NCBI RefSeq assembly: GCF_014647375.1
Contig: NZ_BMPB01000004.1
Location: 186,001 to 250,000 of the forward strand
Direction of reading: 5' to 3'
Length of the DNA stretch: 64,000 nucleotides
Origin: Parabacteroides faecis
GTDB lineage: Bacteria > Bacteroidota > Bacteroidia > Bacteroidales > Tannerellaceae
Of this stretch, positions 5,247 through 60,916 are shown piece by piece. The translations under genes were made by a program, and so were the position numbers. Position 1 is the first letter of the stretch; each line of letters opens with the position of its first letter. A model generated the notes under the pieces. It did no database searches. It saw only the letters and a program-made list of their open reading frames with translations, and was not told the origin of the DNA.

Positions 5247-5312
5247 CAATAATAATCCACAGAATAGGCAATTTTTTGCTATTTAGGATGGGGATGATTG
5301 CTTGTATATTTG
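5247..5312 (+). promoter_or_regulatory. 66-bp dyad promoter element, copy 1
   Basis: First of five copies of a 66-bp element. It opens with CAATAATAATCCAC, carries inverted arms AGGCAAT (5266-5272) and ATTGCTT (5297-5303), and ends in TATATTTG (5305-5312), a match to the Bacteroidetes -7 box TAnnTTTG. This is the most diverged copy: the arm sequence differs from the others on both sides, yet still pairs except for one G/T position. The next gene starts 119 bp downstream, leaving an AT-rich leader in which I see no further structure. There is no TTG at the usual 19-21 bp from the -7 box, so activation by a dyad-binding regulator is one reading. Confidence 0.65.
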
Positions 5313-5431
5313 CACTATTTTACCTGTTTTTTGTTTTTTAACTCTATTTGACTAAATGTTTTAGGTACAAGAAGTGTATTTTATATAAATGAACAGTGAA
5401 AGTTAATTTAATTCTAATCGGAAAAATATAA

Positions 5432-8416
5432 ATGTCTATGAATTTGAAAAGGATGGCAATGGGGGCTGCGTTGATAACTCTATGTCTGTTTGCAGAGGCT
5501 AAAGTAAAACCAGTTGTACATTATAATTTCGGAAAGTCCGGCAATGTCACGTATGCTGTGGCACCGGAGAAATTGACACCGGTAACCGGAAAAGGAGAAT
5601 TGTTTGCGATAGGGCGGCCTGTTTTCTATGCCGATGCTCCCGGTGACAAGAAGATGAAGGGTGAAGGGGGAATTTTATTTAATGGAAACGGCGATGGATA
5701 TAAACTGGAAGGGGCGTTCGGTTCTCCGGCAGAAAATCAGGTATTGGAAATATGGGTAAAACCCCGGTTGGATACTCAACAGGGCGAGAAGGAAAAAGAG
5801 CAGGCACAGGTATTGCTTTCCAATGGAACTGCCAAGGAAGGATATGTATTTGTTCATAGGAGAGGACACTGGTATTTGATTTCCGGTGGTTCGGGACGTG
5901 TTGAAATCGGAGAGGTTTTACCTAACGCCTGGACACATCTGGCGATGGTGATGGAAGAGGGGAAAGGAACCGTTTGGATGAACGGGAAAAAGACCGGAAC
6001 ATTCAAACCTACAAAGGCAATAGCACCTCATTTTTCTATTGCTGTTTCGGAAGAGGGAAAAGAGGCTTTTTACGGTGAAATATATGAAGTAAGATACAGC
6101 ACTTTTGCCACCGGGAAGTTCAATCCGGAATCCGATTTCCTATTGGATTATAAAAAGATAAAAGAGATAAGCAAGCAACGCCTGGCCGAACGCCGTGTCT
6201 TGGTGCAACAACTGGAACAGGCGAGTGCGGGCAAGAAGATTGTTACGGAACTACCCGATGTTCGTCAGGAAAAGGATTGGTTGATCAGTCAGGTAGAAGA
6301 GCCGGCCTGTTTGTTCGTGCAGAAATCGGAAGATGGATTGACATCCAAATTTCAGTTGAATAACGGTTTAGTCTCCCGTACTTTTTATGTCGGTGAAAAT
6401 ATAGCCTGCGTCGAGTATAAAAATCATTCGAATGAGGCAGAGTTTTTACGGGCGGTAAAACCGGAAGCACGTGTTTGCATTGATAGTGTATGGTATGAGG
6501 TCGGCGGATTGAAAGGACAGCCGGAATTATCTTATTTATTGGATAGCTGGTATGCGGAAATGGAAGCTTCCGATCTGGCATTTACGCTTGAGAAGGTGGA
6601 AACCGGTCTTCCGCTGAAACGTTATCCGTGGACTCCGAAATATAATGCCGTTCCCACAGATTGGCCGGCTAAGGGGTTACGTATGGAAATGACTTTCATC
6701 CCGACCGAAAGTATGGTGAATGTAAAAGACGTGAAGGTGAAAGTCAACTATGAAATTTACCAGGGACTACCTTTGATTGCCAAATGGATCGAGGTTGTCA
6801 ATGAGGGGAAAGAGACTGTTTTGTTGAATGACATGGAATGTGAAGTCTTGGCTGTCAATCAGGATCAGGTGAAACGTATTCATGTGGAAAGTGATTTCTC
6901 TTTTGCATTGGTCAATGCGGATATAGAAGGAAGTGCCCTGATGCACTATGCCGGTACTCCCAAGGCATATCATGTGGGAAGTTCTACTACAAAATGGACA
7001 GTCGATAAAGACTATAACACCTGGGCCAGTCATAATCAGGCAGAGGATAAGTTCCTGGGATTCCCACATCATAATTTATTACTGAGCAAACTTCCTATGG
7101 GGCCTTGTACGAAAGTAAGTAAAGAGGTTCCGTTCAAATCGTATATCACTTTCGAATTGTTGCAGGATAGTGATGATCGTGAGCGGCAATCGCTCGGGCA
7201 TCGGCGGATGTATAAAAAGCTGGCTCCTCAGACAACCGAGTCTTTGATCTCCGGAGGTATTACTTCACATGATGAAACGAAATTGAAAGGATTTATCGAC
7301 CAGATGGCCGAATTGGGACTCGAACAGTTGGACATTATGGCTTGGCCTGGCATCAGTCATGATAATCTGGATTCTGCTTATGTGCAATTATGGCGCAGGG
7401 TTGCTTCCTATGCAAAAGAACGTGGTATTGTAATGGGAGGATATGAATTACAGGTGGCGTCTCGCGGACGGGGAGCAGAGGTGGATTGTATTCATCCGGA
7501 AACAGGAAAACCGGGTAGCCTTTTCGGCCAGAGTGTTTGTATTGCCAGCAAATGGAAAGATACATATTATTCTAAAATGTGGGAGTTCTTTGATAAGACG
7601 GGGTTGATGACTTATAATATGGATGGTCCGTATCACGGAGATCCTTGTGCTTCTACTGTACATCCTTACCATGCCTGTTTGGAAGATTCTCAGTGGCAAC
7701 AATGGAAAACGCAAGTAGAGGTTATCCATGAACTGCAGCGCAGGGGAATGTATATTCCTATTCCGGATTGGTATTTCCTGAACGGACAATGTTCTACAGG
7801 AATGGGATATCGGGAAGCAAGTGCAAACCTGACCCCGCAACAGCAATTGTTATTAGGCCGTCAGTATATTTATGACGGAACCTGGCATAAGATCCCGACA
7901 ATGGGATGGATGACTTTGCAGTTGGTTGGTTTTTATACGAATGACCCAAGGGTTGGGTTGGAGCCTCTTTGTGATAATCTGGATCGGTATGAAGCGCAAT
8001 TAATGCAGTTTCTGGGAAGCGGTTGCCATCTGACTATTCGTGGAAATCGTTTATATGATACGCCGGAAACCAAACAGATGGTATCCCGTTGTATCGACTG
8101 GTTTAAGGAATACCGGGATATATTGACTTCCGATATTATCCACGTCAGCCGTCCGACTGGTCGCGATCTGGATTGCATGATGCACGTAAATCCTTTCATT
8201 AAGCATAAAGGTATGGTGGTCGTATTTAATCCGACAGACCGGGATATAACGAAGGAGATGCGTTTACCTCTTTATTACACCGGTTTGAAGGGTAAAGCAA
8301 CAGTCACAGCTTCGGATAGAAACAAACAGAGTTTCTCGTTGAACCAACAAAGTGAATTACTATTGCCTGTTTCTATAAAGGCGCAGGGTGTATCCTGGTT
8401 CCTGATAGAAGAATAA
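5432..8416 (+). CDS. LamG-domain protein fused to an unassigned TIM-barrel glycosidase-like domain
   Basis: Exported protein of 994 residues with an N-terminal signal peptide cleaved near AEAKVK. Residues about 25-240 look like a LamG/concanavalin-type beta-sandwich (HYNFGKSG, GGILFNGNGDGYKLEG, ILEVWVKP-like VLEIWVKP, NAWTHLAMVME), usually carbohydrate binding. The rest resembles clan GH-D type enzymes (GH27/36-like): a beta-rich supersandwich region (about 280-600), then a barrel with LEQLDIMAWPGISHDNLD, MTYNMDGPYHGDP and IPDWYFLNG, and a C-terminal beta domain. Asp731 (in NMDG) and Asp779 (in PDWY) are candidate catalytic acids; this is inference from motif position only. I cannot assign a numbered GH family. 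It is first in the unit behind repeat copy 1, and the GH92 gene follows after 36 bp. Confidence 0.7.
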   Translation: MSMNLKRMAMGAALITLCLFAEAKVKPVVHYNFGKSGNVTYAVAPEKLTPVTGKGELFAIGRPVFYADAPGDKKMKGEGGILFNGNGDGYKLEGAFGSPAENQVLEIWVKPRLDTQQGEKEKEQAQVLLSNGTAKEGYVFVHRRGHWYLISGGSGRVEIGEVLPNAWTHLAMVMEEGKGTVWMNGKKTGTFKPTKAIAPHFSIAVSEEGKEAFYGEIYEVRYSTFATGKFNPESDFLLDYKKIKEISKQRLAERRVLVQQLEQASAGKKIVTELPDVRQEKDWLISQVEEPACLFVQKSEDGLTSKFQLNNGLVSRTFYVGENIACVEYKNHSNEAEFLRAVKPEARVCIDSVWYEVGGLKGQPELSYLLDSWYAEMEASDLAFTLEKVETGLPLKRYPWTPKYNAVPTDWPAKGLRMEMTFIPTESMVNVKDVKVKVNYEIYQGLPLIAKWIEVVNEGKETVLLNDMECEVLAVNQDQVKRIHVESDFSFALVNADIEGSALMHYAGTPKAYHVGSSTTKWTVDKDYNTWASHNQAEDKFLGFPHHNLLLSKLPMGPCTKVSKEVPFKSYITFELLQDSDDRERQSLGHRRMYKKLAPQTTESLISGGITSHDETKLKGFIDQMAELGLEQLDIMAWPGISHDNLDSAYVQLWRRVASYAKERGIVMGGYELQVASRGRGAEVDCIHPETGKPGSLFGQSVCIASKWKDTYYSKMWEFFDKTGLMTYNMDGPYHGDPCASTVHPYHACLEDSQWQQWKTQVEVIHELQRRGMYIPIPDWYFLNGQCSTGMGYREASANLTPQQQLLLGRQYIYDGTWHKIPTMGWMTLQLVGFYTNDPRVGLEPLCDNLDRYEAQLMQFLGSGCHLTIRGNRLYDTPETKQMVSRCIDWFKEYRDILTSDIIHVSRPTGRDLDCMMHVNPFIKHKGMVVVFNPTDRDITKEMRLPLYYTGLKGKATVTASDRNKQSFSLNQQSELLLPVSIKAQGVSWFLIEE

Positions 8417-8452
8417 AGGTAGAGGTTCGTTGAATAAATTAAGTAGATAAAC

Positions 8453-10711
8453 GTGAAAAAGTTTATATTATTACTGATTAGTGGAAGCGTTTACGCTCTG
8501 TTGGCAACAGGATGCAAGGAGGTTGGAGAATCGAATAACCGCTATGTCAATAAATGGATTGGTACAGCTTCAGAGGGCAGGGTTGCTCCTGTTGCCTCTG
8601 TGCCATTCGGAATGATGCAGATAGGTGCGGATACTCGCCCGTATGGAGCCGGATACCATTATCAGGACCCGACAGTTTTAGGATTCAGCCATCTGCATAA
8701 AAGTGGAGGTGGATGTGCTGACTTTTTGGATATACTTTTTATGCCGTTACCCTTGAATCACCCGAAAGGAGAGAATGAGTTGTATTCCAAGCAATATCAG
8801 GCGGCTTTATCCCATCAAGAGGAAAAAGCGGAGCCGGGGTATTATTCGGTCAATTTGTATGCCGGACAACTGATGGTGGAATTGACAGCTTCCCGTCGAT
8901 GCGGACTGCAACGATATCGGTATGATACCGGTGGTGAAATACCGGTCGTTGTCGATTTGAAGTATGGTTCGGAAAGTGCTTGTACCATACAGACCGAGCA
9001 TGATGTGGATACGGTGTATGCCTCTGCGTTCGAGTGGGTCGACTCATGTACGATTTGCGGCTACCGTTTTTCGAACGGTTGGACACCCAGACAGCAAGTC
9101 TATTTCTATTCAAAGTTTTCATCCCCTATCAAAGCTTGTGTTCTGTATGTCGATGATCAACGCATAAAGGAGGTTTCTTCTGCTGAAGGACGGAATGTAA
9201 AGGCGTTACTTACTTTTGAGAACGAGCGTAGCGAGTTGGAAGTCCGGACAGCACTTTCTTCGGTGAGTATGGAGGGGGCTGCTGCCAATCTGCAGTCGGA
9301 AATCGAAGGCAAGACATTTGAAGAGGTGAGGTTGTCGGCATCTGAATCCTGGAGCCGTACGTTGGGGCAGATAGAAATAGAAACCGATGATCCGAAAAAG
9401 AAGGAACTCTTTTATACTTCTTTGCACAATGTCATGTTATACCCATTCTTATTATCGGATGTAGATAATCGTTTTAGGGGACCGGATTGGCAGGTACATC
9501 AAACCGATGGATTCGATTATTATGGTGGTGTGATCGGCTTTTGGGATACGTTTCGGGCGGCTTGCCCTTTGTTGGCTATGCTTAACCCGGATGTGGCGAA
9601 AGATTATGTAAAGACGTTGCTGGAGCATTACAAATATGCCGGTCAATTACCGATATGGACGTTGTGGGGTATTGAGAATTATCAAATGACAGGGATTCAT
9701 TCGTTGCCGGTGATAGCTAACGCTTATCTGAATGGTATTCGTGGTTTCGATACCCGGTTGGCGCTGGAGGCAATGGTCGCATCGGCTATGAAAGATACGT
9801 GCGGCTATTCCATGGGGTATTTTGTCGGCTTGGAAAATTATAAAAAATATGGTTATGTCCCCTGTGATATGGAGATGGAGTCGGTGGCACGTACTTTGGA
9901 GTATGCGTTCGATGATTATGCTTTGGCTCGTTTTGCCGAAGCGATCGGTGCACATAAAGAGGCCGGTTACTTTGCAAATCGCTCGCTTAACTATCGGAAT
10001 GTAATTGATTCCGGAACATTACTGGCCCGGGGACGGCTGGCGGATGGTGGTTGGCGTACGCCTTTCGATCCGTTGGCTTCTTCTCATCGTAGGGATGATT
10101 ATTGTGAGGGCAATGGCTGGCAGTGGACTTTTTTTGTGCCTCATGATGTGGAGGGTTTAGCTACTTTGCTAGGAGGTAAAAAGGCATTGGAGGCCCGGCT
10201 GGATTCTCTTTTCACCATGTCTTCCGAATTGCGCGGGGAAAATATCTCCGGAGATATTTCCGGATTGATTGGACAATATGCACATGGCAATGAACCGGGA
10301 CACCATACCATTTATATGTATAACCGGGTGGGACGTCCCGATAAAACGCAGAAGTATGTCAACCGGGTGTTGACTACCCTGTATGATAATACTCCGGAAG
10401 GTATTTGCGGAAATGAAGATACCGGACAAATGAGTGCTTGGTATGTCTTTAGTTCGTTAGGTTTCTATCCGATGGATCCGGCTTCCGGACAGTATGAATT
10501 GGGAGCTCCTTTATTTGAAAAGGCGACAATCAAGCTGTCTTCGGGAAAAGAGTTCGTTATCAAAGCAACTCGTTTGTCGGAAAAGAATATGTATGTGGAC
10601 AAGGTCTTTCTGAATGGACAGCGTTTGAACCGAACGTATATCACCTTTGAAGAGGTGTTGAAAGGCGGCGAGCTCCTCTTTGAAATGAAGGAAGAGGGAG
10701 AAAAGGTCTGA
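8453..10711 (+). CDS. GH92 family alpha-mannosidase, lipoprotein
   Basis: Calcium-dependent exo-alpha-mannosidase family; known members remove terminal alpha-linked mannose from N-glycans or mannans with inversion. It starts at a GTG (8453) giving a lipoprotein signal with Cys near residue 21 (LLATGCKE). Family signatures are clear: YVNKWIGTASEGRVAPVASV and VPFGMMQIGADTRPYGAGY near the N-terminus, LGFSHLHKSGGGCADF, GFWDTFRAACPLL, GNEPGHHTIYMYN with Glu614 (the position of the family's general acid), and GNEDTGQMSAWYVFSSLGFY with Asp656 in the base region. Length, 752 residues, is normal. The stop codon overlaps the next ATG by one base (TGATG), indicating translational coupling to the GH38-like gene. 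Linkage specificity (alpha-1,2, 1,3 or other) cannot be deduced. Confidence 0.93.
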   Translation: MKKFILLLISGSVYALLATGCKEVGESNNRYVNKWIGTASEGRVAPVASVPFGMMQIGADTRPYGAGYHYQDPTVLGFSHLHKSGGGCADFLDILFMPLPLNHPKGENELYSKQYQAALSHQEEKAEPGYYSVNLYAGQLMVELTASRRCGLQRYRYDTGGEIPVVVDLKYGSESACTIQTEHDVDTVYASAFEWVDSCTICGYRFSNGWTPRQQVYFYSKFSSPIKACVLYVDDQRIKEVSSAEGRNVKALLTFENERSELEVRTALSSVSMEGAAANLQSEIEGKTFEEVRLSASESWSRTLGQIEIETDDPKKKELFYTSLHNVMLYPFLLSDVDNRFRGPDWQVHQTDGFDYYGGVIGFWDTFRAACPLLAMLNPDVAKDYVKTLLEHYKYAGQLPIWTLWGIENYQMTGIHSLPVIANAYLNGIRGFDTRLALEAMVASAMKDTCGYSMGYFVGLENYKKYGYVPCDMEMESVARTLEYAFDDYALARFAEAIGAHKEAGYFANRSLNYRNVIDSGTLLARGRLADGGWRTPFDPLASSHRRDDYCEGNGWQWTFFVPHDVEGLATLLGGKKALEARLDSLFTMSSELRGENISGDISGLIGQYAHGNEPGHHTIYMYNRVGRPDKTQKYVNRVLTTLYDNTPEGICGNEDTGQMSAWYVFSSLGFYPMDPASGQYELGAPLFEKATIKLSSGKEFVIKATRLSEKNMYVDKVFLNGQRLNRTYITFEEVLKGGELLFEMKEEGEKV

Positions 10712-13482
10712 TGAAGTATGTGAATAAACACAATAGAAGTATGTATATGAGATTATGTAAATTACCGATGGCACTTCTTTGCCTGTTTTCTTTATCTGTC
10801 GGTCAGCTTTGTGCACAAGCAGATAATTATAAGAAACATAAGAATGATGAGGTGGAACAAACCTCGAATCAGGAAATGACCTTTTATCTGGTATTCAAAA
10901 GCCATTTCGATATAGGCTATTCTGCCTTGGCACGCGATGTTGTGCATGAATACCGTACTTCCATGATCGATAAAGCAATGGATGTAATGGATAAGAATGC
11001 AGATAAGTTGAAAGATACTCAGTTTGCCTGGACCGTTCCCGGTTGGCCTTTGGAACAAATGTTGTGGGACAGACAGTCGCCCGAACGCCGGTTGCGCATT
11101 GAACGGGCGTTGAAAAATGGTAACCTGGTGACGCATGCTCTCCCTTTCACTACACATACGGGAACACTTGAAGTGGAAGACCTGGTACGTGGACTGGGAT
11201 ATTCTTCCTCTTTGGCACGCCGATATAACCTGCCGCTTCCTACCGATGGGAAGATGACGGATGTACCCGGACATACCTGGGTACTGCCGACGATCCTGTA
11301 TCATGCCGGGATTAAGTTCTTCCATTTCGGCTCAAACCCGACTAATCGGGTGGTACAGGTGCCCGAGCTGTTCTGGTGGGAAGGACCGGACGGTTCAAGA
11401 GTGTTGACGATGTTTTCAGAAGGATACGGCGGCGGTGTATTCCCGCCTGATGGATGGAAGCACAAGGCGTGGCTGACATTCGTACATGCAGGCGACAATG
11501 CCGGACCTCCTGCAGCTGAAGAGGTGGAGAAAGTGATTGCGCATATCAGGGAAAAGTATCCGAAGGCTAAAATACATATCGGTAAGATGTCTGATTTCGC
11601 GGATGCTATTTGGGCAGAGAATCCGGAACTACCGGTGGTACGCGGAGACATGTCCGATAGTTGGGTACATGGTGTGATGTCAAACCCGCAGGCCACGCAA
11701 AAGGCTCGCCGGATACGCCCGTTGATACCGGCTTTGGAAACCTTGCATACACAAGGAAAGGAGTGGGGCATTATTCCGTATGAGATCGATGAGGATCTGG
11801 CATTTGTTTACGAGAAGAGTTTGATGTACGGTGAACATACCTGGGGATTGGCGGATCAACATTTCATCCCCGGATTGGTGGGCAAGGAATGGCATAAGAA
11901 CTATGTTTCAGGGTTGACTCCCAATTATGCCCGCATGGTAGAGTCGTGGGAAGAGCATATCGGTTATATCGAGGATGCGGAAAAGGTGTTGCGTCCGGAA
12001 CTGGAAAACGAGCTTTATACCCTGGCAGAGAACGTGGCGCAGAATGGCTTTCGTTTCGTGGTATACAATCCGCTGCCTTGGATGCGTGGCGGTATAGTGA
12101 ATTTTGCTTTGCCGACGCAAGGATCTATCCAGGACGCGTATGTGAAAGAAGTGGATTCCGACCGCATTCATAAGTTGAAAGTATACGGTGCTGATTCGAA
12201 ACGGTTGGGTACATTCTATGTAGAGGATATTCCGGCCAACGGATATAAAACATTTATTTTGACTAAAGAAGGACCGGCTGAGGAGAAAACAACATTGAAG
12301 GGAAATGAACGTGAGGGTTTTATCGAAAACCGGTGGTATAAAGTAGCATTCGACAAGTCGCGCGGTTGTATAAAGAGTATCTGGGATAAGGTGAATAACC
12401 GTGAACTGGTCGATTCGCGTGCCAAAGACGGCTTCGGTTCATACGTTTACGAACGCTATGACAAGAAACAATCGCTGCAATATCTGAAAGAGTATATTTA
12501 CGACGGTTATAAGAATTCACATTACCGGATCACCGGTAAGAGCTCTTATCTCGACGATCGGACAAAAGGAGTACATGAATCAGCGCGTCGGATGGAGTTG
12601 TATGTGGAAGATCATAAATCATCTATTCAGGCGATTCTTGTTCCACCGGCTTCGGTAGGGGAGGAAAAGCATACGGCTGGTCTGAAGGTGACACTTTACG
12701 AAGATATGCCTTATATCGATATCAAACTGTCGGTTGTCAACAAACCGGCCACCGAAGAGCCGGAAGCCGGATGGATTGCATTGCCTTTCCGGACAGTGGA
12801 ACCGGAATACCGTATCGGTCGCCTGGGTTCGGTGATAGATCCGGCCAAAGATCTGATAGAAGGTAGCCAATTCAATTACATTTGGTCGAACTCGGGATTG
12901 ATGATAAAGGATAAGGAGTATTCGATCGGCATTTGTGCACTGGATGCTCCGGCTTTTCAATTGGGTGATTTAAATTTTATGCACTTCGCGGATAAATATG
13001 AAAACCCTCGGTCACATGTCTATTTCAACCTGTTTAACAATCGCTGGAACACCAACTTTACCTCTTTCTGGCATGGCAACCTGACTACGGAAGTTCGTTT
13101 ATGGGTGAACCAGGCAAGTGCAGACGATGCATCCGGTCTGGTTATTCCGGCTTGGGAAACTCGGCTACCCTTACAAGTAGGTATTGCTACCTGTCCCGGC
13201 GGTAAATTACCTGTGGTGAACGAAGGGGTGAAAGTCTCACGCAAAGGGGTACTTGTCACTGCTTACGGTAACAATCCGGATGGCGAAGGCAAACTGTTAC
13301 GTCTTTGGGAAGAAACCGGAGAAAGTGGTTTCTGTGAAGTCTCTTTGCCAATCCGGAAAGACGGAGTGGCACAACCTGTGAATTTGAGAGGTGTTCCCTG
13401 CGGGCAGCCTGTTAAGATACAGGACGGTACGTTTAATATTCAGTTAGATGGATTTACCCCCGCTAGTTATTTAATATATTAA
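10711..13482 (+). CDS. GH38-like alpha-mannosidase-family enzyme, copy 1
   Basis: Exported enzyme of 923 residues resembling the GH38 superfamily (DUF5054-type branch), whose characterised relatives hydrolyse alpha-mannosides using zinc. The ATG at 10711 overlaps the GH92 stop; the ATG at 10747 would give a tighter signal peptide (MRLCKLPMALLCLFSLSV). The N-terminal motif FKSHFDIGYS holds His65 and Asp67, the usual first metal ligands. MTDVPGHTW holds Asp184, at the family's nucleophile/ligand position, and GEHTWG (His376) is the likely late metal ligand. Beta-sandwich domains fill the C-terminal half. Paralogues occur in this window at 20369 and 60954. True mannosidase activity is inference, although pairing with GH92 supports it. 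Confidence 0.83.
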   Translation: MKYVNKHNRSMYMRLCKLPMALLCLFSLSVGQLCAQADNYKKHKNDEVEQTSNQEMTFYLVFKSHFDIGYSALARDVVHEYRTSMIDKAMDVMDKNADKLKDTQFAWTVPGWPLEQMLWDRQSPERRLRIERALKNGNLVTHALPFTTHTGTLEVEDLVRGLGYSSSLARRYNLPLPTDGKMTDVPGHTWVLPTILYHAGIKFFHFGSNPTNRVVQVPELFWWEGPDGSRVLTMFSEGYGGGVFPPDGWKHKAWLTFVHAGDNAGPPAAEEVEKVIAHIREKYPKAKIHIGKMSDFADAIWAENPELPVVRGDMSDSWVHGVMSNPQATQKARRIRPLIPALETLHTQGKEWGIIPYEIDEDLAFVYEKSLMYGEHTWGLADQHFIPGLVGKEWHKNYVSGLTPNYARMVESWEEHIGYIEDAEKVLRPELENELYTLAENVAQNGFRFVVYNPLPWMRGGIVNFALPTQGSIQDAYVKEVDSDRIHKLKVYGADSKRLGTFYVEDIPANGYKTFILTKEGPAEEKTTLKGNEREGFIENRWYKVAFDKSRGCIKSIWDKVNNRELVDSRAKDGFGSYVYERYDKKQSLQYLKEYIYDGYKNSHYRITGKSSYLDDRTKGVHESARRMELYVEDHKSSIQAILVPPASVGEEKHTAGLKVTLYEDMPYIDIKLSVVNKPATEEPEAGWIALPFRTVEPEYRIGRLGSVIDPAKDLIEGSQFNYIWSNSGLMIKDKEYSIGICALDAPAFQLGDLNFMHFADKYENPRSHVYFNLFNNRWNTNFTSFWHGNLTTEVRLWVNQASADDASGLVIPAWETRLPLQVGIATCPGGKLPVVNEGVKVSRKGVLVTAYGNNPDGEGKLLRLWEETGESGFCEVSLPIRKDGVAQPVNLRGVPCGQPVKIQDGTFNIQLDGFTPASYLIY

Positions 13483-13493
13483 TTAAAATAATA

Positions 13494-23056: not shown

Positions 23057-23060
23057 ACAA

Positions 23061-50437: not shown

Positions 50438-50445
50438 AGGAGATT

Positions 50446-51399
50446 ATGAGCAAACATTTGGAATTACTAGACAAATTCTATGATAATAGGGCTACTGAGC
50501 ATGAAAAACGTCAGTTAGCCGCAATGTTGAACGACTCAGACAGATGGGTGGAGGACTTTGATGGAATCTGGGAACATTCTTTCGGTCATATGCCGGAGTC
50601 GGTAGATGAACGTATTTTTAAGGTTATCAGTAAGACTGTTAACCCCAAAAAGATAAATATCAGGAGGAGCTTTATGCGGATTGCAGCCTATGCAGCCGTA
50701 GTCGGTGCCATTGCTGTATCATTATTCTATTGGAACGAAAACAGGTTGTTAACCAAATATAATGATATGACTGTAGAAGTAGGCCAGGGACAGAAATCGG
50801 ATATTTCTCTGCCGGACGGCACAATAGTCCATCTGAATGCTGACTCGAAACTACGTTATGGTAGTAATTTCAACGGGAAACAACGTCAGGTCGAACTGGT
50901 TGGAGAAGCTTATTTTGATGTTGCAAAAGATGCTCGATCTCCTTTTATCGTAAAAGCTGGAGATATTCAGATACGTGCTTTGGGTACTTCATTTAATGTC
51001 CATGCCTACCCCGATGATGAGAATATCATGACTTATCTGGCAGAAGGTTCGGTCATTATTTCGTCTTCTACCCAATCTATCAACCTAAGCCCAGGAGAAG
51101 TAGCCGTTTATTCGTTGAAGAAAAACCGGATGATAAAGAAAAAGGAAGACGACCGGTTATTTATCGCCTGGATGAATAATGAAATGGTATTCAACGATGA
51201 GCCGATCCTGAATATTATCAAACTACTGGAGCGCAATTATAATGTGAAGTTTGAGATTAAAAGCGATAGGCTGAATTGCATCACTTTCACCGGAACCCTG
51301 AAAAATGCCAGCTTACAGTCTACTCTTTATGCCTTACAATTTACATCTTCCATCTCTTATAAGAAAAAAGATGACGTGATAGAACTCTATAGTGATTAA
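50446..51399 (+). CDS. FecR-family anti-sigma factor, module 2
   Basis: Anti-sigma factor of 317 residues. The cytoplasmic N-terminus (MSKHLELLDKFYDNRATEHE) precedes one membrane helix at about 76-94 (MRIAAYAAVVGAIAVSLFYW). The periplasmic FecR domain shows VGQGQKSDISLPDGTIVHLN, LVGEAYFDVAKD and ALGTSFNVHAY, then a C-terminal STN-contacting domain. A good ribosome site (AAAGGAG) sits upstream. It pairs with the sigma at 49826 and the SusC at 51555. Confidence 0.94.
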   Translation: MSKHLELLDKFYDNRATEHEKRQLAAMLNDSDRWVEDFDGIWEHSFGHMPESVDERIFKVISKTVNPKKINIRRSFMRIAAYAAVVGAIAVSLFYWNENRLLTKYNDMTVEVGQGQKSDISLPDGTIVHLNADSKLRYGSNFNGKQRQVELVGEAYFDVAKDARSPFIVKAGDIQIRALGTSFNVHAYPDDENIMTYLAEGSVIISSSTQSINLSPGEVAVYSLKKNRMIKKKEDDRLFIAWMNNEMVFNDEPILNIIKLLERNYNVKFEIKSDRLNCITFTGTLKNASLQSTLYALQFTSSISYKKKDDVIELYSD

Positions 51400-51448
51400 C
51401 CCTTTAAATAGTATGGATATGACGTAGAAAAAACACATACACAAAAAA

Positions 51449-51523
51449 GGGAAAGTGCTTGCAACACCTTCCCCTATTATCAGTCAATTAAGAGAGTTGA
51501 ATATTCGTAAGTAGTCACTCTCT
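51449..51523 (+). promoter_or_regulatory. Two hairpins between FecR and SusC, module 2
   Basis: The first hairpin is GGGAAAGTG (51449-51457) with CACCTTCCC (51465-51473), one mismatched pair. The second is AGAGAGT (51491-51497) with ACTCTCT (51517-51523). Neither has a proper T-run. As in module 1, structured DNA sits between the regulators and the SusC gene, where an attenuator, operator or ECF promoter would be expected. Confidence 0.4.
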
Positions 51524-51554
51524 GGTAATTAACCATTTAATACTACACAAAAGT

Positions 51555-54500: not shown

Positions 54501-54857
54501 TATGACGAATATATAAATAGTGCGGCCCATAACAGGACTGTTTTTGACTATTGGACACCTCGGAATACAGATGCAAAGTATCCGCGTCTAGATTATAATT
54601 CAAATGCAAGATATAAAGGAACAAAGTATATGGATCGTAGTTTCATTAAATTGCAAAAAGTCGCTTTAAGTTATGATCTCTCTCGTTTTGTTAAACGGTT
54701 CGGATTTAATAATATGCGTTTGTCTTTGAGTGCTGATAACCTATTGACGTTTGCTCCTCATTGGGATGGTCTGGATCCGGAAACAGGTTCCGGTTTGACT
54801 ATTTCGTCTTCTCCTTCTATCCGTACATATCAAATGACTTTATTGTTTAACTTCTAA
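51555..54857 (+). CDS. SusC-like TonB-dependent outer-membrane receptor, module 2
   Basis: TonB-dependent oligosaccharide transporter, 1100 residues from the first ATG. The ATG at 51606 (MKKIGAICIVAFLSTSVFAQ) gives a cleaner signal peptide and may be the real start. It has an STN domain (about 38-110), a CarboxypepD_reg-like domain (IVDDNNEPIIGANVSMKGTT), a TonB box DEVVVIGYG from residue 197, a plug (ASAAAVYGSRSSNGVILIQT) and the barrel ending in LLFNF. It carries the same DNDGDGKEDD loop as the module 1 protein. Regulated by the adjoining sigma/FecR pair. SusD follows after 11 bp. Confidence 0.96.
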   Translation: MNKKSEIIFSFLKKGNIMKKIGAICIVAFLSTSVFAQVTVNVKRQTIRQALRTIEKATDYRFFYSNQLPDLEKTVSFEVNNQSIDAAMSRLLNGTVLIYEKKEDNQIYLAVKKAGTNPMKISGTIVDDNNEPIIGANVSMKGTTIGTITDVDGKFNIEASPGMTLLISYIGYATKEVTVSNQTVYKIKMQEDTQALDEVVVIGYGTLNRQAITGSVTKADINTYRDVPTNNIMETIKGSVPGLNVGGVNKAGSVAGFSIRGQNSTRDGGNNPLIVLDGAIYDGSLADIPSDDIDSFTVLKDASAAAVYGSRSSNGVILIQTKRGRSKTSKPEFSVNLSYGISNELKRLKVYDAAGYLRKLLDVREANGLDADPEKLNIYLQPEEAKNYNATQDHRPTFTDPYELFRQNAYNLKANVSISNSSDFANYYISAALTDQKGVVMNDRYKNFSGRVNIDSNLTSWLKVGVKTNYSIRDYSGDSPAMNKAAQFSPYASLYDDEGRYLQYPQTTTSFESPFWSMKTDDTEKYNILGAILNAKITIPWVKGLSYEMVYSNTLRWSQKYYFYDEYTTTGQGKNGKGERKHENNYNMLLDNMIKYNNTFNQKHNIDATFLYSRERRTWENATAYAENFDNTILGDNKLEDGKKQTVDTGAGESGAIAWMARGTYTFDSRYSITGTVRRDGCSAFSVNRKWATFASGGLNWNISNESFMKDIEPINNLALRVSYGSNGNQSIDSYSTLAKVGTNKYIFAGDPSYSITQGISSFALNDLGWEKTTGFNTGIDFSLLNNRLSGNIDAYFTNTTDLLFSLSLPSVSGKTSMLSNLGKIRNKGVEIGLHSVNIESKDFKWTSDFAFSLNRNKVVTIYGEDNDGDGKEDDLISSGYFIGKTLGTIYGYKVIGMWQQEDVDNGTIMDGMRPGDYKLEDVDGDGKITSDKDRQFLGTSKENFRWSLTNTLEYKDFSLMIYINSIWGGNGYFQSGSNTPYYDEYINSAAHNRTVFDYWTPRNTDAKYPRLDYNSNARYKGTKYMDRSFIKLQKVALSYDLSRFVKRFGFNNMRLSLSADNLLTFAPHWDGLDPETGSGLTISSSPSIRTYQMTLLFNF

Positions 54858-54868
54858 TCTGATTAAAA

Positions 54869-56578
54869 ATGAAATTAATAAAACAACTATTTATAGGATT
54901 GGTACTTGCCGGCTCTATGACCTCCTGTTATGATTTACTGACAGAGGTACCTAAAGATTTTTTGACTCCGGAAAATTCATATACAGATAGAAAAGGTTTC
55001 GAGGCTGCTTTAGCAAATATTTATCTGAGCATAAGAAATGATTTTTATGCCAATACGGATAGCTGGCAGAATTATGACCTGATGGGAGTGGATGTGGATT
55101 TGAACAGTCCTCGTTCCGGTACAGATACATATCCGGAGTATTTTTACTGGAATACGTTGAATGCCGATAATGGATTTGCCAAAAAATGGTGGCAACGGTT
55201 GTATGGATATATTTACAGTTGTAATGTCATTATCAATCGGGCAGAGAGTTCACTTGTAAAATGGAATTCTGAAGAAGAAAAGAATGCGATTGTAGGAGAG
55301 GCGAAATTCTTACGCGCGTTTGCTTATCGCTTTTTAGCTAATATGTGGGGAAATGCACCTGTCGTTTTAGAAGAAACCACTTCTCCTCAGTTTAATTATC
55401 AGAGTGTGTCCCAAGAGGAAATTTATAGGCAATGTAAAGAAGATTTACTGTTTGCAATCCAGTGGATGCCGGAAATAGATAGTCAAAAAGGGGGAAGAGC
55501 TTCTAATGTGGCAGCCCGGCATTTGTTATCGGAGATTTTGATTTGTATGAAAGATTATAACGGTGCAGTGGAACAGGCTACTGCTGTTATTAATAATCCG
55601 TCGATGTCTTTGATGACGGAAAGATTCGGTAAATTGAAAGATTTTACTTTCGAAGGTTATGATTACCAGGGAGAGAAAGAACGATGGGGGGATGTATACT
55701 GGGATCTTTTCAGAGAAAATAATTTCAATAGAATTGACGGAAATAAGGAATGTATCTGGAATGTGCAGTTTGATGTTGAATTGGAAGGAGGTGGAAATGT
55801 AGGTGTTTCCGGCGGTAATTTCACTATGGAACGTTGGATAGGTACGAACTGGTGGAACCTGAAAGATACTGATGGCAATCCGAACTGGCTGAAAGATATC
55901 TTAAGCGGACGTCCTGTGGATCAGATTTCTATAACTAATTATGCTGCAAATCAAATATGGCAGTACAAGGGAGACTGGGATCGTGATATGCGTAATTCCA
56001 AATATAATATGCGGCGCGAATATTACTGGACAAATCCTAATAGCCGTTTTTACGGTCAGTTAATGACAGAAGAGACATTAGGTAATAAAGAGGATTTATT
56101 CCGGGTTACTCAACCTATTTTTATTAAAGTCGTTACTGCCCGGCATCACGGACAATTCAAAGATGCAACGAGTGGCGAAACTCATGATAATGGCCGTATT
56201 TATAAAGATTGGTATATTATGCGTCTGGCAGAAACCTATTTATTGCGTGCCGAAGCAAATATGTTGGCAGGTAAGCTTGATGCAGCTGCAGCCGATATAA
56301 ATGTCGTACGTAACAGGGCCAATGCAACTCCTGTTGCAGCTTCCGATGTTAACCAGGATTTGATTCTGGATGAGCGGGCTCGTGAACTCTATATGGAAGA
56401 TTTTCGTCTGAATACCTTGATGCGAATGAATAAACTGACTGAATATCTGATGAAGTATAATCCGAAAGTTGTTCAGGGAGGATATCAGTTAGGAAATCAT
56501 TTGAATAAATTGCCTGTTCCTAATTCGGAAATAGAAGCAAACAAGGAAGGTGGCTTGATCCAGAATGAGGGTTATTAA
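54869..56578 (+). CDS. SusD-like surface lipoprotein, module 2
   Basis: SusD/RagB family lipoprotein of 569 residues (signal MKLIKQLFIGLVLAGSMTS, then Cys). Typical blocks are EAKFLRAFAYRFLANMWGNA, RLAETYLLRAEANMLAGKLD and LILDERARELYMEDFRLNTL. It binds substrate for the SusC above. An intrinsic terminator follows after 23 bp. Confidence 0.95.
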   Translation: MKLIKQLFIGLVLAGSMTSCYDLLTEVPKDFLTPENSYTDRKGFEAALANIYLSIRNDFYANTDSWQNYDLMGVDVDLNSPRSGTDTYPEYFYWNTLNADNGFAKKWWQRLYGYIYSCNVIINRAESSLVKWNSEEEKNAIVGEAKFLRAFAYRFLANMWGNAPVVLEETTSPQFNYQSVSQEEIYRQCKEDLLFAIQWMPEIDSQKGGRASNVAARHLLSEILICMKDYNGAVEQATAVINNPSMSLMTERFGKLKDFTFEGYDYQGEKERWGDVYWDLFRENNFNRIDGNKECIWNVQFDVELEGGGNVGVSGGNFTMERWIGTNWWNLKDTDGNPNWLKDILSGRPVDQISITNYAANQIWQYKGDWDRDMRNSKYNMRREYYWTNPNSRFYGQLMTEETLGNKEDLFRVTQPIFIKVVTARHHGQFKDATSGETHDNGRIYKDWYIMRLAETYLLRAEANMLAGKLDAAAADINVVRNRANATPVAASDVNQDLILDERARELYMEDFRLNTLMRMNKLTEYLMKYNPKVVQGGYQLGNHLNKLPVPNSEIEANKEGGLIQNEGY

Positions 56579-56601
56579 TTCATAGTATATTAGAAAAAGA
56601 G

Positions 56602-56641
56602 GAGGATTAAGTGTTGGAAAGCTTATGAATCCTCTTTTTTG
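56602..56641 (+). terminator. Rho-independent terminator after the third SusD
   Basis: GAGGATT (56602-56608) pairs with AATCCTC (56628-56634), followed by seven T. The flanking A-run on the left also pairs with the T-run, so it may work in both directions. Confidence 0.75.
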
Positions 56642-56644
56642 AAT

Positions 56645-56652
56645 TATTTTTG
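56645..56652 (+). promoter_or_regulatory. Candidate -7 box for the GH97 gene
   Basis: TATTTTTG matches TAnnTTTG and lies 64 bp before the GH97 ATG, just after the terminator. No TTG is seen at the -33 distance. Confidence 0.35.
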
Positions 56653-56716
56653 TTCGCAGAAATAGTAAGATGATGGCTATGGCCGGGAGGGAGAAATAGA
56701 TAAAAGTAATTATATC

Positions 56717-58591
56717 ATGAAAAAAACAATTATTTTATTAACTGCGTTATTGCAGTCTGTTTTCGTTAGTGCACAAACGACTGGTTCGTTGAAAAGTCCT
56801 TCGGAGTTATTGAATGCAGAAATTGATGTGAAGGATCAATCTGTACAGATTAGTTTGTATGAAAAAGGAAGTAAGGTAGTAGATGTGAAAACCCTTCAAT
56901 TGGAGTTGGCAGAAAATATTTTGCAGGGTAATTGGTCTGTTATTAATCAAACAAAAAAATCAGTTGATCAAACCTGGCAACCTATCTATGGAGAACGTTC
57001 TCTTGTGACAGACCGGTATAATGAGTTAAAATTATCATTTCGTTTGGATGAAAACCTGAAAGAAATGACCTTGTTTGTCCGCTTGTATGATGAAGGTTTG
57101 GCTTTTCGCTATGCTTTCGATAATTTGGACTTTTGGAACTGTACGCTGACTGAAGAAAATACGCAATTCCTGTTCAAAGAGGACTGCAAGACCTGGGTAA
57201 CCGGTATGGCGCAAGGAGCTTATTCGGAAAAGAGATTGAGTTCATTGACTGGGGTGGCCGATCGTCCGCAGGTTATTCAGGTAAATGATCATCGTTTTGT
57301 GGCAATCGGTGAAGCGGCCTTGGTCGATTATTCCCGAATGAAGCTTGAAAAGAGCGAAACCGGTTTGGGGGTACAATCCGTACTATCGGGAAAGGTAAAC
57401 CTGGATTTGGCTAAATATCAATCCCCCTGGCGCTATGTGATGGTTGCCGAGCATCCGGGAAAGCTGGTAGAACATAATTATTTCGTACTCAATCTGAATG
57501 AACCTAATCAAATAGCCAATACGAGTTGGATCAAACCCGGGCAAGTGCTTCGTGAGGTTACGTTGACTACGGCAGGAAGTTTGGCGTGTATCGATTTTGC
57601 TGCGGAAAACAATATTGCTTATGTGCTGTTTGATGCCGGTTGGTATGGTGCGGAAGAAGATATGAAATCGGATGCAACAACGGTAACGATCGATCCTGCC
57701 CGTTCCAAAGGACCGCTCGATTTGCCTGAAGTGATAAAATATGCAGAATCCAAAGGGGTAGGAATACTTGTGTACGTGAATAAAAAAGCCTTGCATCAAC
57801 AATTGGATGAAATACTTCCTTTATATAAAAAGTGGGGTATCAAAGGTGTAAAATACGGTTTTGTGAATGTGGGTGACCAGTATGCAACGGCTTGGTTGCA
57901 TCAGGCTGTACGAAAGGCGGCAAAGTATGAATTGATGGTCGATATCCATGATGAATATCGACCGACAGGTTATTCACGAACTTATCCGAACTTGCTGACT
58001 CAGGAAGGTATCCGTGGTGATGAAGAAAGCCCGTCATTAGATCAGGCTATCTATACTTTATATAATCGTATGATTTGCGGGGCAGGTGATTATACCAACT
58101 GTTATTTTGCAGAAAGGGTGACGGAAAAGATGGGAGGCCGTGCAGCTCAGCTAGCTAAGCTGGTTGCTATTTATAGTCCGTGGCAGTTTGTTTACTGGTA
58201 TGACCGTCCCGAGAAGTCTCCGTCCCGTGCAGGTGGAGCAGGTTCTGCCGAATCTGTGATAAAAACAGATGGCGCCACTAAATTTTATAATTCAATTCCG
58301 ACTGTGTGGGATGATACACGATTCATGGAAGGAAAGATGGGGGAATATGCTGTAGTAGCTCGTCGTTCTGGCTCCGATTGGTATATTAGTATCCTGAATG
58401 CAGGAGACAAAAGGCAGGTGACATTGCCGCTGGATTTCCTGAAAGATACGTCTGCCTGTGAAGCGACTCTTTATTATCAGGCACCTGGAAAGAAAAAAGA
58501 TGTGGTAAGTATAAAAACGATAAAACTACAGTCCTCGTTGGTTCTTGATGTAGAGGCGAATAGCGGATGTGTGTTGCATCTTACCCGTTGA
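56717..58591 (+). CDS. GH97 family alpha-glucosidase-like enzyme, inverting-type active site
   Basis: Exported 624-residue GH97 enzyme (signal MKKTIILLTALLQSVFVSAQ), a calcium-dependent family covering alpha-glucosidases (SusB) and alpha-galactosidases. An N-terminal beta-supersandwich (KSPSELLNAEIDVKDQ, RLYDEGLAFRYAF) leads into a barrel with WIKPG, LFDAGWYG, KGVKYGFVNVGDQ, DIHDEYRPTGYSRTYPN and GIRGDEE. In retaining members the strand-4 motif has an Asp nucleophile; here that place is Gly381. The base-type glutamates of the inverting group are present as Glu413 (HDE) and Glu436/437. This argues for an inverting, SusB-like alpha-glucosidase rather than an alpha-galactosidase; the substrate linkage is not determined. 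Confidence 0.9.
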   Translation: MKKTIILLTALLQSVFVSAQTTGSLKSPSELLNAEIDVKDQSVQISLYEKGSKVVDVKTLQLELAENILQGNWSVINQTKKSVDQTWQPIYGERSLVTDRYNELKLSFRLDENLKEMTLFVRLYDEGLAFRYAFDNLDFWNCTLTEENTQFLFKEDCKTWVTGMAQGAYSEKRLSSLTGVADRPQVIQVNDHRFVAIGEAALVDYSRMKLEKSETGLGVQSVLSGKVNLDLAKYQSPWRYVMVAEHPGKLVEHNYFVLNLNEPNQIANTSWIKPGQVLREVTLTTAGSLACIDFAAENNIAYVLFDAGWYGAEEDMKSDATTVTIDPARSKGPLDLPEVIKYAESKGVGILVYVNKKALHQQLDEILPLYKKWGIKGVKYGFVNVGDQYATAWLHQAVRKAAKYELMVDIHDEYRPTGYSRTYPNLLTQEGIRGDEESPSLDQAIYTLYNRMICGAGDYTNCYFAERVTEKMGGRAAQLAKLVAIYSPWQFVYWYDRPEKSPSRAGGAGSAESVIKTDGATKFYNSIPTVWDDTRFMEGKMGEYAVVARRSGSDWYISILNAGDKRQVTLPLDFLKDTSACEATLYYQAPGKKKDVVSIKTIKLQSSLVLDVEANSGCVLHLTR

Positions 58592-58619
58592 TAAAGGAAT
58601 CGTTTAGAAAATAGGTAAG

Positions 58620-58685
58620 CAATAATAATCCACCAAATAGGCAGCTATTTGCTATTTTATATAGCGATAGCTGCTTTTATATTTG
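58620..58685 (+). promoter_or_regulatory. 66-bp dyad promoter element, copy 4
   Basis: Arms AGGCAGCTAT (58639-58648) and ATAGCTGCTT (58667-58676) pair with one G/T position. TATATTTG is at 58678-58685, 49 bp before the ATG at 58735. After the -7 box it shares GTATTC and ATAAAT with copy 3. Confidence 0.7.
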
Positions 58686-58734
58686 TATTCCATAAATTAG
58701 AGGTTGTTTGTATAGAAGCAATAGGAGGGAGTTA

Positions 58735-60849
58735 ATGATGAAAATGAAGTTCATTTTATTAGTCTTTTTTGTTTTACACGGGAGTATTATCCATGGAAAA
58801 GATGAAAACAAATCAGATATAAGTCAAACGAAGATAACGGTAAAACCCGGTTCGGGAACTTTGCAACAAGCTATTCGTAAAGCTGCATCGATAGAGGGAG
58901 ATGTCATTATAGAAATGGCAGGTGGTGAGTATCGTACCGATAAAACGATTGAAATCTTGCCGGGAAACTGGCATTCTTTACGAATAAAAAGTAAAAAAGG
59001 GGAGAAAGTCTCTGTTTCCGGCGATAAGGTCATTTCTTTGAGTAAAATAAGACCGGTTAAAGATCCGGTTGTTTTGTCCCGTCTACAGGAAAGTGTACGT
59101 GGAAAAGTTGTTGAGGTGGATTGTAAAAGTGTTGTAGAAACATTGGCGAATATTCGCCCTTCCGGATTTGGACGTAAATCATTACCGGCCTGGTCTGAGT
59201 TGATTGTAGATACTGAGCCGTTACATTTATCCCGTTGGCCGAACGATTCGATGGTGTTGATCGGGCGTGTCGATATTTCCGGAGGTCCGGAAGATAAGCA
59301 GCAAGGTCGGTTGCCTGTTTTCCATTTTCAGGAAGAACGGCCGGGGCATTGGGCACATACGGATAATATGTGGATAGGCGGTTATTTTGGTCATGGTTAT
59401 GCGGATGATATGATACCGGTAAAATCGATTAACATGCAAGATTCCACAGTACATGCAGGAATGTTTACAACCTATCAGTTTTTTACCGGTGCAGATTTTC
59501 GTCGGTGGTTCGCCTTAAATTTATTGGAAGAAATAGATCGGGCGGGAGAATATGTGATCGATCCGGATACACGGAAGTTTTACTTTCTTCCGGGAGATAA
59601 AAAAATATCGAAAGTCCGTTTGACTGTTTTAGAGAGTCCTGTTATTGCTGTGGAAAATTGCAGGAACGTGACAATAGAAAGTATTACGATTGAAAATAGC
59701 CGGGGAATAGGTGTTTATATGGATAATACGGAAAACATATTGTTACAGGGATGTATAATTCGTAATGTCGGCAATGTTGGAGTTTGCATAGGAAAAGGAA
59801 CTGATTCTCCTGAGAGATCTGTCGGTGACCAGACACATGCGATGGAAGCTGGTGGGGAACTCTGCAGTAGAAAGGTAGGCGATATGATGGGAAAAATATA
59901 TGAGAATACAATACTGGATCGGCAAGCCGGTAAAAATAACGGGGTAAAAGATTGTTATATTTACAATACAGGTGCTGGCGGTGTCAGTTTAGGAGGAGGT
60001 AACCGTGTTACTTTGACCCGTTCGGATAATTATGTGGAGAATTGTAAAATATCCCGTTATAACCGTATCGAAAAATCATACCGGCCCGGCGTTTGGATCG
60101 ATGGTGTAGGAAACCGGGTTACGAAATGCGATATATCAGATGCACCGAGTATGGCTATTCTGTTTCATGGGAACGATCATACAATAGAGTACTGTAATAT
60201 CACGCAGGTTTGTCAGGAGGTAGACGACCAGGGGGCTATCTATTACGGACGTGATCCGTCGGAGCGAGGTAATGTTATTCGCTACAATTATTTTCATGAA
60301 TTGAGTCCCCGTCACCGTGTAACAGCTACTTATCATGACGATGGGGCTTGTGGAAGCGAGGTTTACGGGAATATTTATTTTAAGGCCGGTTCATTACCTG
60401 TTCTGATAGGAGGTGGAATGGATCATAAATATTATAATAATATCTTTATTAATTCTCCTACGGCTATCCATCTGGATAATCGTTTACAAAACTGGGCGAA
60501 AAATATGTTGGACAAAGGAGGTATTTATGATAAAAGATTACAAGCTGTCAATTATACGCAGCCTCCTTATAGTATAAAATATCCCGAATTGGTCAACTAC
60601 TGGCAGGAAGATCCGGCTTTTCCGAAAAGAAACCAGATACATGGAAACTTGTTTTACAAGATAACGGACTTACTGCATGGAAATAGTTTGTGGGGAGAGT
60701 TCTGGAATAACTGGGTGACGGATGAAGATCCGGGGTTTGTCGATCCGTCCGATCCTTTGAAAGGATTCAGGAAAGATGCCGGTATTTTTAACCGGATAGC
60801 CGGTTTTAAAGAAATTCCTTATTCTGAGATTGGTTCGACATTGGAGTAA
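58735..60849 (+). CDS. Right-handed parallel beta-helix protein, GH141-like
   Basis: Exported protein of about 704 residues. The ATG at 58735 has a strong AGGAGGG site a few bases upstream and begins MMKMKFILLVFFVLHGSIIH; the TTG at 58708 is rejected. The N-terminal part shows TLQQAIRKAASIEGDVIIEM. The helix repeats show NVTIESITIENSRGIGVYMD, GAGGVSLGGGNRVTL, NYVENCKISRYNRIEKSYRP, DDQGAIYYGRDPSERGNVIR and YNYFHELSP. This block order resembles GH141 (alpha-L-fucosidase/xylanase) and related beta-helix enzymes, but I cannot fix the family by eye. It stands alone between repeat copies 4 and 5. Activity is inference. Confidence 0.65.
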   Translation: MMKMKFILLVFFVLHGSIIHGKDENKSDISQTKITVKPGSGTLQQAIRKAASIEGDVIIEMAGGEYRTDKTIEILPGNWHSLRIKSKKGEKVSVSGDKVISLSKIRPVKDPVVLSRLQESVRGKVVEVDCKSVVETLANIRPSGFGRKSLPAWSELIVDTEPLHLSRWPNDSMVLIGRVDISGGPEDKQQGRLPVFHFQEERPGHWAHTDNMWIGGYFGHGYADDMIPVKSINMQDSTVHAGMFTTYQFFTGADFRRWFALNLLEEIDRAGEYVIDPDTRKFYFLPGDKKISKVRLTVLESPVIAVENCRNVTIESITIENSRGIGVYMDNTENILLQGCIIRNVGNVGVCIGKGTDSPERSVGDQTHAMEAGGELCSRKVGDMMGKIYENTILDRQAGKNNGVKDCYIYNTGAGGVSLGGGNRVTLTRSDNYVENCKISRYNRIEKSYRPGVWIDGVGNRVTKCDISDAPSMAILFHGNDHTIEYCNITQVCQEVDDQGAIYYGRDPSERGNVIRYNYFHELSPRHRVTATYHDDGACGSEVYGNIYFKAGSLPVLIGGGMDHKYYNNIFINSPTAIHLDNRLQNWAKNMLDKGGIYDKRLQAVNYTQPPYSIKYPELVNYWQEDPAFPKRNQIHGNLFYKITDLLHGNSLWGEFWNNWVTDEDPGFVDPSDPLKGFRKDAGIFNRIAGFKEIPYSEIGSTLE

Positions 60850-60850
60850 G

Positions 60851-60916
60851 CAATAATAATACACGGAATAAGCAGCTATTTGCTATTTTATATAGCGATA
60901 GCTGCTTTTATATTTG
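60851..60916 (+). promoter_or_regulatory. 66-bp dyad promoter element, copy 5
   Basis: Perfect arms AAGCAGCTAT (60870-60879) and ATAGCTGCTT (60898-60907), with TATATTTG at 60909-60916, 37 bp before the GH38-like ATG. The element starts one base after the stop codon of the preceding gene. Confidence 0.7.

Follow-up and report, generated by a model that had tools for sequence, protein, structure and literature searches.

A 66-bp element stands five times in the window analysed here, a 64,000-nucleotide stretch of the Parabacteroides faecis genome (contig NZ_BMPB01000004.1, which we call C4; window, C4:186001-250000). This element is most likely a control switch that has been copied ahead of about ten glycan-degrading units in a small group of gut bacteria. 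Each copy is probably an AraC-activated promoter, with a 38-bp box at its left end that would serve as the operator of one AraC-family regulator, and the set as a whole is best read as a predicted AraC-controlled regulon of polysaccharide utilization loci (PULs) that includes an operon for an extracytoplasmic function (ECF) sigma factor. This proposal draws on features of the sequence itself: the copies and their geometry, an araC gene beside one copy in all four genomes that carry the element, and a like geometry at some promoters of the regulator's homologues.

The five copies in the window lie at 5247..5312, 15756..15821, 49576..49641, 58620..58685 and 60851..60916, with identical internal spacing. 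Their coordinates, length and equal spacing had been given in an earlier note made from the letters alone, and are borne out both by position and by an unguided repeat search, in which the five copies form the sole five-copy direct-repeat family (D1) among the 12 listed, its members being 70-100% identical to the reference over 81 nt. When the whole genome (6.66 Mb, 33 contigs) was searched with a sequence-only model built from nine copies, ten copies were found, all at E <= 5.3e-15, with the next match at E = 0.1. Eight of the ten lie on the + strand of C4 within 79 kb (191244-269904), all of them coding-strand; three of these are just beyond the window, at 256326, 261696 and 269836. The other two are on contig C1 (455661 and 503099), in a second glycan locus. 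Among 39 genomes of the genus, strong copies occur in four: P. faecis (10), P. gordonii (G009, 6), P. goldsteinii (G013, 7) and G038 (4). Three of these four have one weak match apiece besides, and two further genomes have single weak matches only (E 0.003-0.009). A search of 393 genomes of the order, made with stricter filters and with the genus sparsely represented in the draw, found strong copies in the P. faecis genome alone; weak matches in four of the 393 (E 4e-4 to 1e-3) were inspected and were unconvincing as elements.

In each of the four element genomes a copy stands ahead of a GH120 (glycoside hydrolase family 120) gene, the P. faecis protein sharing 93-94% identity with its P. gordonii and P. 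goldsteinii counterparts, and in three genomes (P. faecis and two others) a copy stands ahead of the orthologous ECF sigma gene. Carriage of the element by GH120 relatives outside the four-genome clade was considered and rejected: among 21 loci, it was found solely in L018, L019 and L030. In the literature, no title or abstract start among the matches listed describes this regulon, and the listed matches to the motif strings were unrelated by title (supplements were outside this search). The earlier note had held that matches scattered at random relative to genes would mark a plain repeat, an outcome that did not occur. An interspersed or mobile repeat lodged between genes by chance would suit copies that overlap or abut upstream stops and stand in non-orthologous places, and the cassette has clearly multiplied. 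Yet we consider this very improbable, given that eight of the ten P. faecis copies share one locus, all coding-strand and most directly before a gene start, that conservation is internal to the element, with a spacer variable in sequence but fixed in length, and that promoters of the regulator's homologues share its geometry.

To describe the anatomy of the element we aligned 27 strong copies without gaps, omitting the partial or weak matches L066, L067, L079, L083, L084 and L085-L088. Two parts are constant, the 38-bp left box and a -7 box that follows 20 bp further on. The box reads CAATAATAATCCAC-NN-AATARGCA-NN-T-W-TTTGCTATTT; 20 of its 38 columns are invariant, and 26 carry one base in at least 26 of the 27 copies. 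The intervening 20 bp vary in sequence and are constant in length. At positions 59-66 the -7 box is exactly TATNTTTG in 22 copies and TANNTTTG in 24, and the form TAnnTTTG is present in all five window copies, in all ten P. faecis copies and in 24 of 27 overall. Within the left box, TCCAC and GCTAT form a direct repeat at 22 bp, and the distance from the second core to the -7 box is again 22 bp in ungapped copies.

Promoters of the primary sigma factor in Bacteroidetes carry TAnnTTTG at -7 and TTTG near -33 (PMC7366714). The element shares the -7 box (TATNTTTG) and lacks TTTG at the -33 distance: as the earlier note remarked, the nearest TTTG ends 26 bp before TATATTTG, which that note matched to the Bacteroidetes -7 box and which does fit TAnnTTTG. 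The -33 place is instead filled by the second operator core and TATTT. In Flavobacterium johnsoniae, too, no -33 motif was found (PMC7366714). Since the element has no good -33 box, its promoter would need an activator. Some decayed forms were also seen. L079 (G038:C7:836289) is half-decayed, with the right half and -7 box only, before a 187-aa open reading frame (ORF) whose upstream sequence resembles, by eye, that of the ECF-sigma gene at window 63064. L083 and L084 are truncated after about 29 bp; the upstream sequence of L084 (P. goldsteinii, G013:C11:342579) resembles that of the C1:455661 copy, which together with the truncation points to a rearrangement breakpoint within the element.

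A candidate regulator emerged from a search of the four element genomes for HTH_18 domains. Among the matches listed, every genome has an AraC-family gene immediately next to one copy and in divergent orientation (gene / copy: P. faecis, G000:C4:260789 / 261696; P. gordonii, G009:C1:3786391 / 3787300; P. goldsteinii, G013:C22:301279 / 302186; and G038:C7:850967 / 851874). In P. faecis its frame occupies C4:260777-261712 on the minus strand (L013:10774-11712), about 10.8 kb past the window end. The product carries the Pfam domains AraC_binding and HTH_18 and is 296 aa long in all four genomes from the common start MAKVE (C4:260777-261664 in P. faecis). Orthologues (100, 96, 95 and 88% identical) occur solely in the four element genomes of the 39, the next best being 50% identical; the other 35 have a best homologue at 50%, or none at E 1e-20. 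The earlier note had suggested one shared regulatory site tying the units into a regulon, for which it knew of no named regulator; the suggestion is probably right, and the candidate is now the AraC-family gene that adjoins one copy in each of the four genomes. In P. gordonii, the copy beside araC (L092/L081, G009:C1:3787300) keeps the operator box, its -7 box reads TGACATAG, and the first ATG ORF of at least 80 aa on its strand starts about 847 bp on. Here the regulator site has perhaps been retained and the divergent promoter lost, as expected if the box also serves araC.

If the AraC family binds the box, then homologue promoters should carry related sites, and part of them do. We footprinted 60 divergent upstream regions of homologues 35-50% identical to the candidate, drawn from matches with locus DNA fetched and leaving out the four orthologues, L116 (partial) and L118 (26% identity). 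The motif TCCA-N17..19-CTATT followed by a -7-like TTTG occurs in 17 of the 60, whereas it is absent from all 60 downstream regions, from the opposite orientation and in reversed form, and has a Markov mean of 0.04. It was first read off earlier loci, where 8 of 24 carry it, and is found in 9 of the 36 loci fetched later. Pairs of the looser core TCYAY lie 21 bp apart in 20 of 60 promoters and 22 bp apart in 6, while other offsets from 8 to 40 give 0-2 each, chance being about 0.29 per offset (Markov mean) with a maximum of 3. In 20 of these 26 promoters a -7-like box starts exactly 22 bp after the second core, a distance equal to that in the element. Some homologue sites also come close to the element in sequence, L132 (GCAATAATAATCCAT) being an example. 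Promoters of this AraC subfamily show the layout TCYAY-N16/17-KCYAT-N22-(-7 box) again in several families of the order. Seven of the homologues (L098, L100, L103, L110, L129, L131 and L135) are divergent from a gene whose start looks, by eye, like that of a major facilitator superfamily (MFS) sugar porter.

In ten genomes of the genus, the strict pattern TCCAY-N17-KCTATT-N21-TANNTTTG, which misses copies with variants in a core or in the -7 box (for example copy 5, with core 1 TACAC), matches 23 sites, and the reversed control none. Element copies account for 22 of them (9 in P. faecis, 3 in G009, 6 in G013 and 4 in G038), and the last site, in G004, is an AraC homologue's promoter. The P. 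faecis genome holds at least 86 HTH_18 matches; with so many against so few strict sites, the pattern is no common trait of AraC genes in general.

We suggest that positions 1-38 would act as the operator of a one-component AraC-family regulator, with AraC_binding as its sensor and HTH_18 as its DNA-binding part, whose dimer would probably sit on the two direct-repeat half-sites TCCAC and GCTAT, 22 bp or two helical turns apart. The downstream edge of this operator would cover the -33 region, leaving the primary-sigma box TATNTTTG 22 bp past the second core. With a sugar ligand bound, the regulator would switch on about ten units, encoding GH120, GH92/GH38, GH97, GH3 and beta-helix enzymes and the ECF-sigma/FecR operon, which would in turn pass the signal on to a SusC/SusD pair; the copy divergent from araC could also serve autoregulation. 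Binding, activation rather than repression, the ligand and the transcription starts are parts that we infer. Three traits expected of an AraC operator were found: a direct repeat of about 21 bp (22 bp in the element, where it is short and partly degenerate, and seen in 26 of 60 homologue promoters), a candidate regulator gene that adjoins the site and co-occurs with it (four of four genomes), and a site touching or covering the -33/-35 region at a fixed promoter distance (22 bp, as in 20 of the 26 homologue promoters).

Several points weigh against this model. The repeat itself is short, TCCAC and GCTAT agreeing exactly at two of five bases and at three more as T/G or C/T, and the AATARGCA between the cores is conserved beyond the need of a plain two-half-site operator. 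Adjacency to araC is by itself weak evidence, since with ten copies and some 86 HTH_18 genes spread over 6.66 Mb the chance that one is so near is roughly 0.2, and no AraC gene was found by the two C1 copies among the 11 ORFs of L016/L017 that were scanned (a part of all ORFs there). The TCYAY core was picked after reading the loci, the 60 promoters are mutually related, so that the counts are not independent, and one of the 26 pairs (L142) looks like chance. A further 34 of 60 homologue promoters lack a TCYAY repeat at 21 or 22 bp, those of the related P. faecis regulators C4:308217 and C1:779371 among them; their sites either differ or lie elsewhere. Finally, the dyad that is conserved in 12 copies, discussed below, is not explained by an AraC operator. 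A 300-aa protein beside a C1 copy (P0001) was considered and set aside, having a weak HTH_50 match below the Pfam cut-off and no NCBIfam match.

The proposed operator can be compared with those of known PUL regulators. The motifs predicted for RhaR, an AraC-family rhamnose regulator of Bacteroides, are direct repeats with 21-bp periodicity (PMC3870299). The element is like these in the spacing of its repeat. The RhaR regulon is a single target operon (PMC3878776), whereas the one proposed here has about ten promoters, which are spread over two PUL regions and one of which would serve an ECF-sigma operon. The element is also like the operators of hybrid two-component systems (HTCSs) in Bacteroides thetaiotaomicron, where an AraC-type DNA-binding domain recognizes two tandem sites averaging 21 bp upstream of PUL genes (PMC3878776). 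However, an HTCS is a membrane sensor-kinase fusion (PMC3878776), in contrast to our 296-aa candidate with AraC_binding and HTH_18 only. Could the box nevertheless be the site of an HTCS, or of some other regulator encoded elsewhere? The direct repeats, averaging 21 bp apart in HTCS motifs (PMC3878776), and 20 matches to the Y_Y_Y domain in the genome would allow it. No Y_Y_Y match falls in the cluster, though, the sole one on C4 being at 425142, 155 kb away, and the geometry tracks a one-component AraC subfamily, which makes this alternative quite improbable. No HTCS gene was found in or by the PUL with the Y_Y_Y search and Pfam searches of selected ORFs; several ECF-sigma/FecR pairs were found instead.

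The earlier note had placed the regulatory site in a dyad within the element, describing changes in its arms as compensatory and the dyad itself as under selection. The first part of that description stands. At orthologous GH120 promoters, an arm pair is G-C in P. faecis (own2) and P. goldsteinii and A-T in P. gordonii, and at orthologous sigma-operon promoters it is A-T in own3 and go_068 and G-C in gd_070; RNA folds of the five window copies range from -13.7 to -21.6 kcal/mol, with z of -1.8 for copy 1 and -4.2 to -5.7 for copies 2-5. Selection on the dyad, by contrast, applies to some of the copies at best. Of the 27 copies, 12 have a dyad that is complete or nearly so (own1-5, own10, go_063, go_068, go_074, go_077, gd_065 and gd_070), and in these the hairpin outdoes almost every shuffle of the spacer (p <= 0.008); all the copies described in the earlier note are among them. 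In the remaining 15, no hairpin exceeds shuffles at p 0.05; they keep the left box, and nearly all keep the -7 box at the same spacing; by count, a few of them (for example own6, x_064 and x_069) pair slightly above shuffles. Of the five P. faecis copies outside the window, only C4:256326 keeps the dyad. Thus, the dyad does not define the element, and the regulatory site would instead be the box with its AraC-type direct repeat. Nor is there support for the dyad as a general trait of this AraC subfamily, a hairpin above shuffles (p 0.05) being present in 3 of 20 homologue promoters. Rfam models gave no match at the gathering threshold within the window.

Pairing in the 12 dyad copies appears real but secondary to the element, and would perhaps serve to end upstream transcripts. 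Over all 27 copies the covariation score is 0.228, against 0.170 (standard deviation 0.012) in shuffles, and 23 cells are changed on both sides against 6.5 expected; none of 500 shuffles reaches either value, bearing in mind that kinship among sequences can raise covariation above shuffles without structure. Possibly, though this is tentative, the functional core is the dyad in RNA form, a hairpin of terminator type that would end transcripts from the gene upstream and whose U-tract would at the same time be the -7 box TTTTATATTT, so that a cassette with the dyad would be terminator, operator and promoter at once. The hairpins of the 12 copies, the covariation and the compensatory changes all speak for this, as do the departures from Watson-Crick pairing in those copies (eight of ten cells G.T, two mismatches and no A.C), which are such as RNA pairing allows, and the nearness of a co-directional stop, which lies no more than 90 nt upstream in 10 of the 12 as compared with 7 of the 15 others (with ORFs called mechanically). 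But those seven follow a stop just as closely without the dyad, and 15 copies do without a hairpin while keeping the left box. The number of pair types is not above shuffles, as many as 158 of 500 attaining it, a partner shifted by +3 gives a score of 0.183, fairly near the observed value, and the covariation of the 24/59 pair alone has a Fisher p of 0.06. In addition, the U-tract is interrupted, and a terminator scan of 45001-64000 had no plus-strand match at copies 3-5, although its simple stem rule may miss bulged stems. Copy 1, moreover, already has a canonical-looking terminator just upstream. This terminator, an inverted repeat with a T run, lies at about 5195-5230 of the window; copy 1 has the weakest dyad there.

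Two other roles for the dyad are less probable. It could act as DNA, either as the operator of some dimeric regulator with a symmetric site (this might be a repressor) or as one more AraC half-site, in inverted orientation; in either case it would come on top of the direct repeat. In dyad copies the right arm does repeat the GCTAT core in inverted form and overlaps the spacer ahead of the -7 box, so that a protein bound there would stand in the way of polymerase, and the slight pairing in own6, x_064 and x_069 would agree with it. We think this unlikely, however, as most copies have no good dyad, few homologue promoters show a hairpin, and changes that preserve G.T suit RNA better than DNA. 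The 5' hairpin of a regulated mRNA, which the earlier note had also raised, is unlikely too, because the hairpin lies upstream of the -7 box and hence of the presumed transcription start. The AraC operator and the terminator may also be combined. In the dyad copies, one 66-bp stretch would then hold an AraC operator, a terminator for the upstream transcript and a promoter with its -7 box as U-tract, with overlapping bases and with sequence common to the hairpin and the second operator core, a reading that we hold to be a little more doubtful than the terminator as such. If it is true, a single copying of the cassette between genes would give rise to a new unit that is both insulated and co-regulated, and this would account for the growth of the glycan locus.

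All five window copies are on the + strand, each ahead of its predicted target. Copy 1 has core 1 (TCCAC) at 5256-5260, core 2 (GCTAT) at 5278-5282, the -7 box TATATTTG at 5305-5312 and weak dyad arms at 5266-5275 / 5294-5303. It precedes a LamG-domain gene at 5432, the first of a predicted unit (5432..15761, +) that continues with GH92, GH38 and a 755-aa protein lacking a Pfam match at E 0.001, and that is taken as an operon from spacing alone. Copy 2 (cores at 15765-15769 and 15787-15791, -7 box at 15814-15821, arms at 15775-15784 / 15803-15812) overlaps the stop of the upstream ORF, which ends at 15761, and precedes the predicted GH120 target (PF21258; 15861..17756, +). Copy 3 (cores at 49585-49589 and 49607-49611, -7 box at 49634-49641, arms at 49595-49604 / 49623-49632) lies before a putative transcript (49826..58591, +) for an ECF sigma factor, a FecR anti-sigma factor, SusC, SusD and GH97. 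For copy 4 (cores at 58629-58633 and 58651-58655, -7 box at 58678-58685, arms at 58639-58648 / 58667-58676) the predicted target is a right-handed beta-helix protein gene (58708..60849, +), a 713-aa ORF from TTG with an ATG further in. Copy 5 has the core 1 variant TACAC at 60860-60864, core 2 at 60882-60886, the -7 box at 60909-60916 and arms at 60870-60879 / 60898-60907, ahead of a predicted DUF5054 / GH38-like target of 664 aa (60954..62948, +).

Beyond the window, the + strand copies at C4:256326, C4:261696 and C4:269836 precede GH97, GH3/GH38 (this one beside araC) and a second GH120, respectively. Of the two C1 copies, one precedes a gene whose GH43 match is below threshold, the other an 822-aa gene for which Pfam gave no match. 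The enzyme mix includes families known from plant and from host glycans. The cluster holds four ECF-sigma genes (L012:16130-17801 and window 38836-40536, 49826-51399 and 63064-63627); the first three are followed by FecR, and the third alone has the element directly upstream. Within the glycan locus, the second GH120 is followed downstream by two URO-D-family genes and a gene for a corrinoid (B12)-binding protein (L014:3850-7454, C4 about 271.8-275.5 kb), which are possibly a methyltransferase set for O-methylated sugars.

AraC-type operators are already a known kind, to which the element adds an example (PMC3870299, PMC3878776). What is more surprising is that, in 12 of 27 copies, a covarying hairpin overlies the operator's second core together with the spacer ahead of the -7 box. 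For P. faecis, a very large glycan locus without an HTCS of its own, with several ECF-sigma/FecR pairs and many enzymes, gains a single candidate master regulator and an exact predicted operator, and an ECF-sigma operon is placed under that candidate. Because the layout recurs at promoters of the AraC subfamily, the sites and targets of its other regulators may likewise be predictable from sequence.

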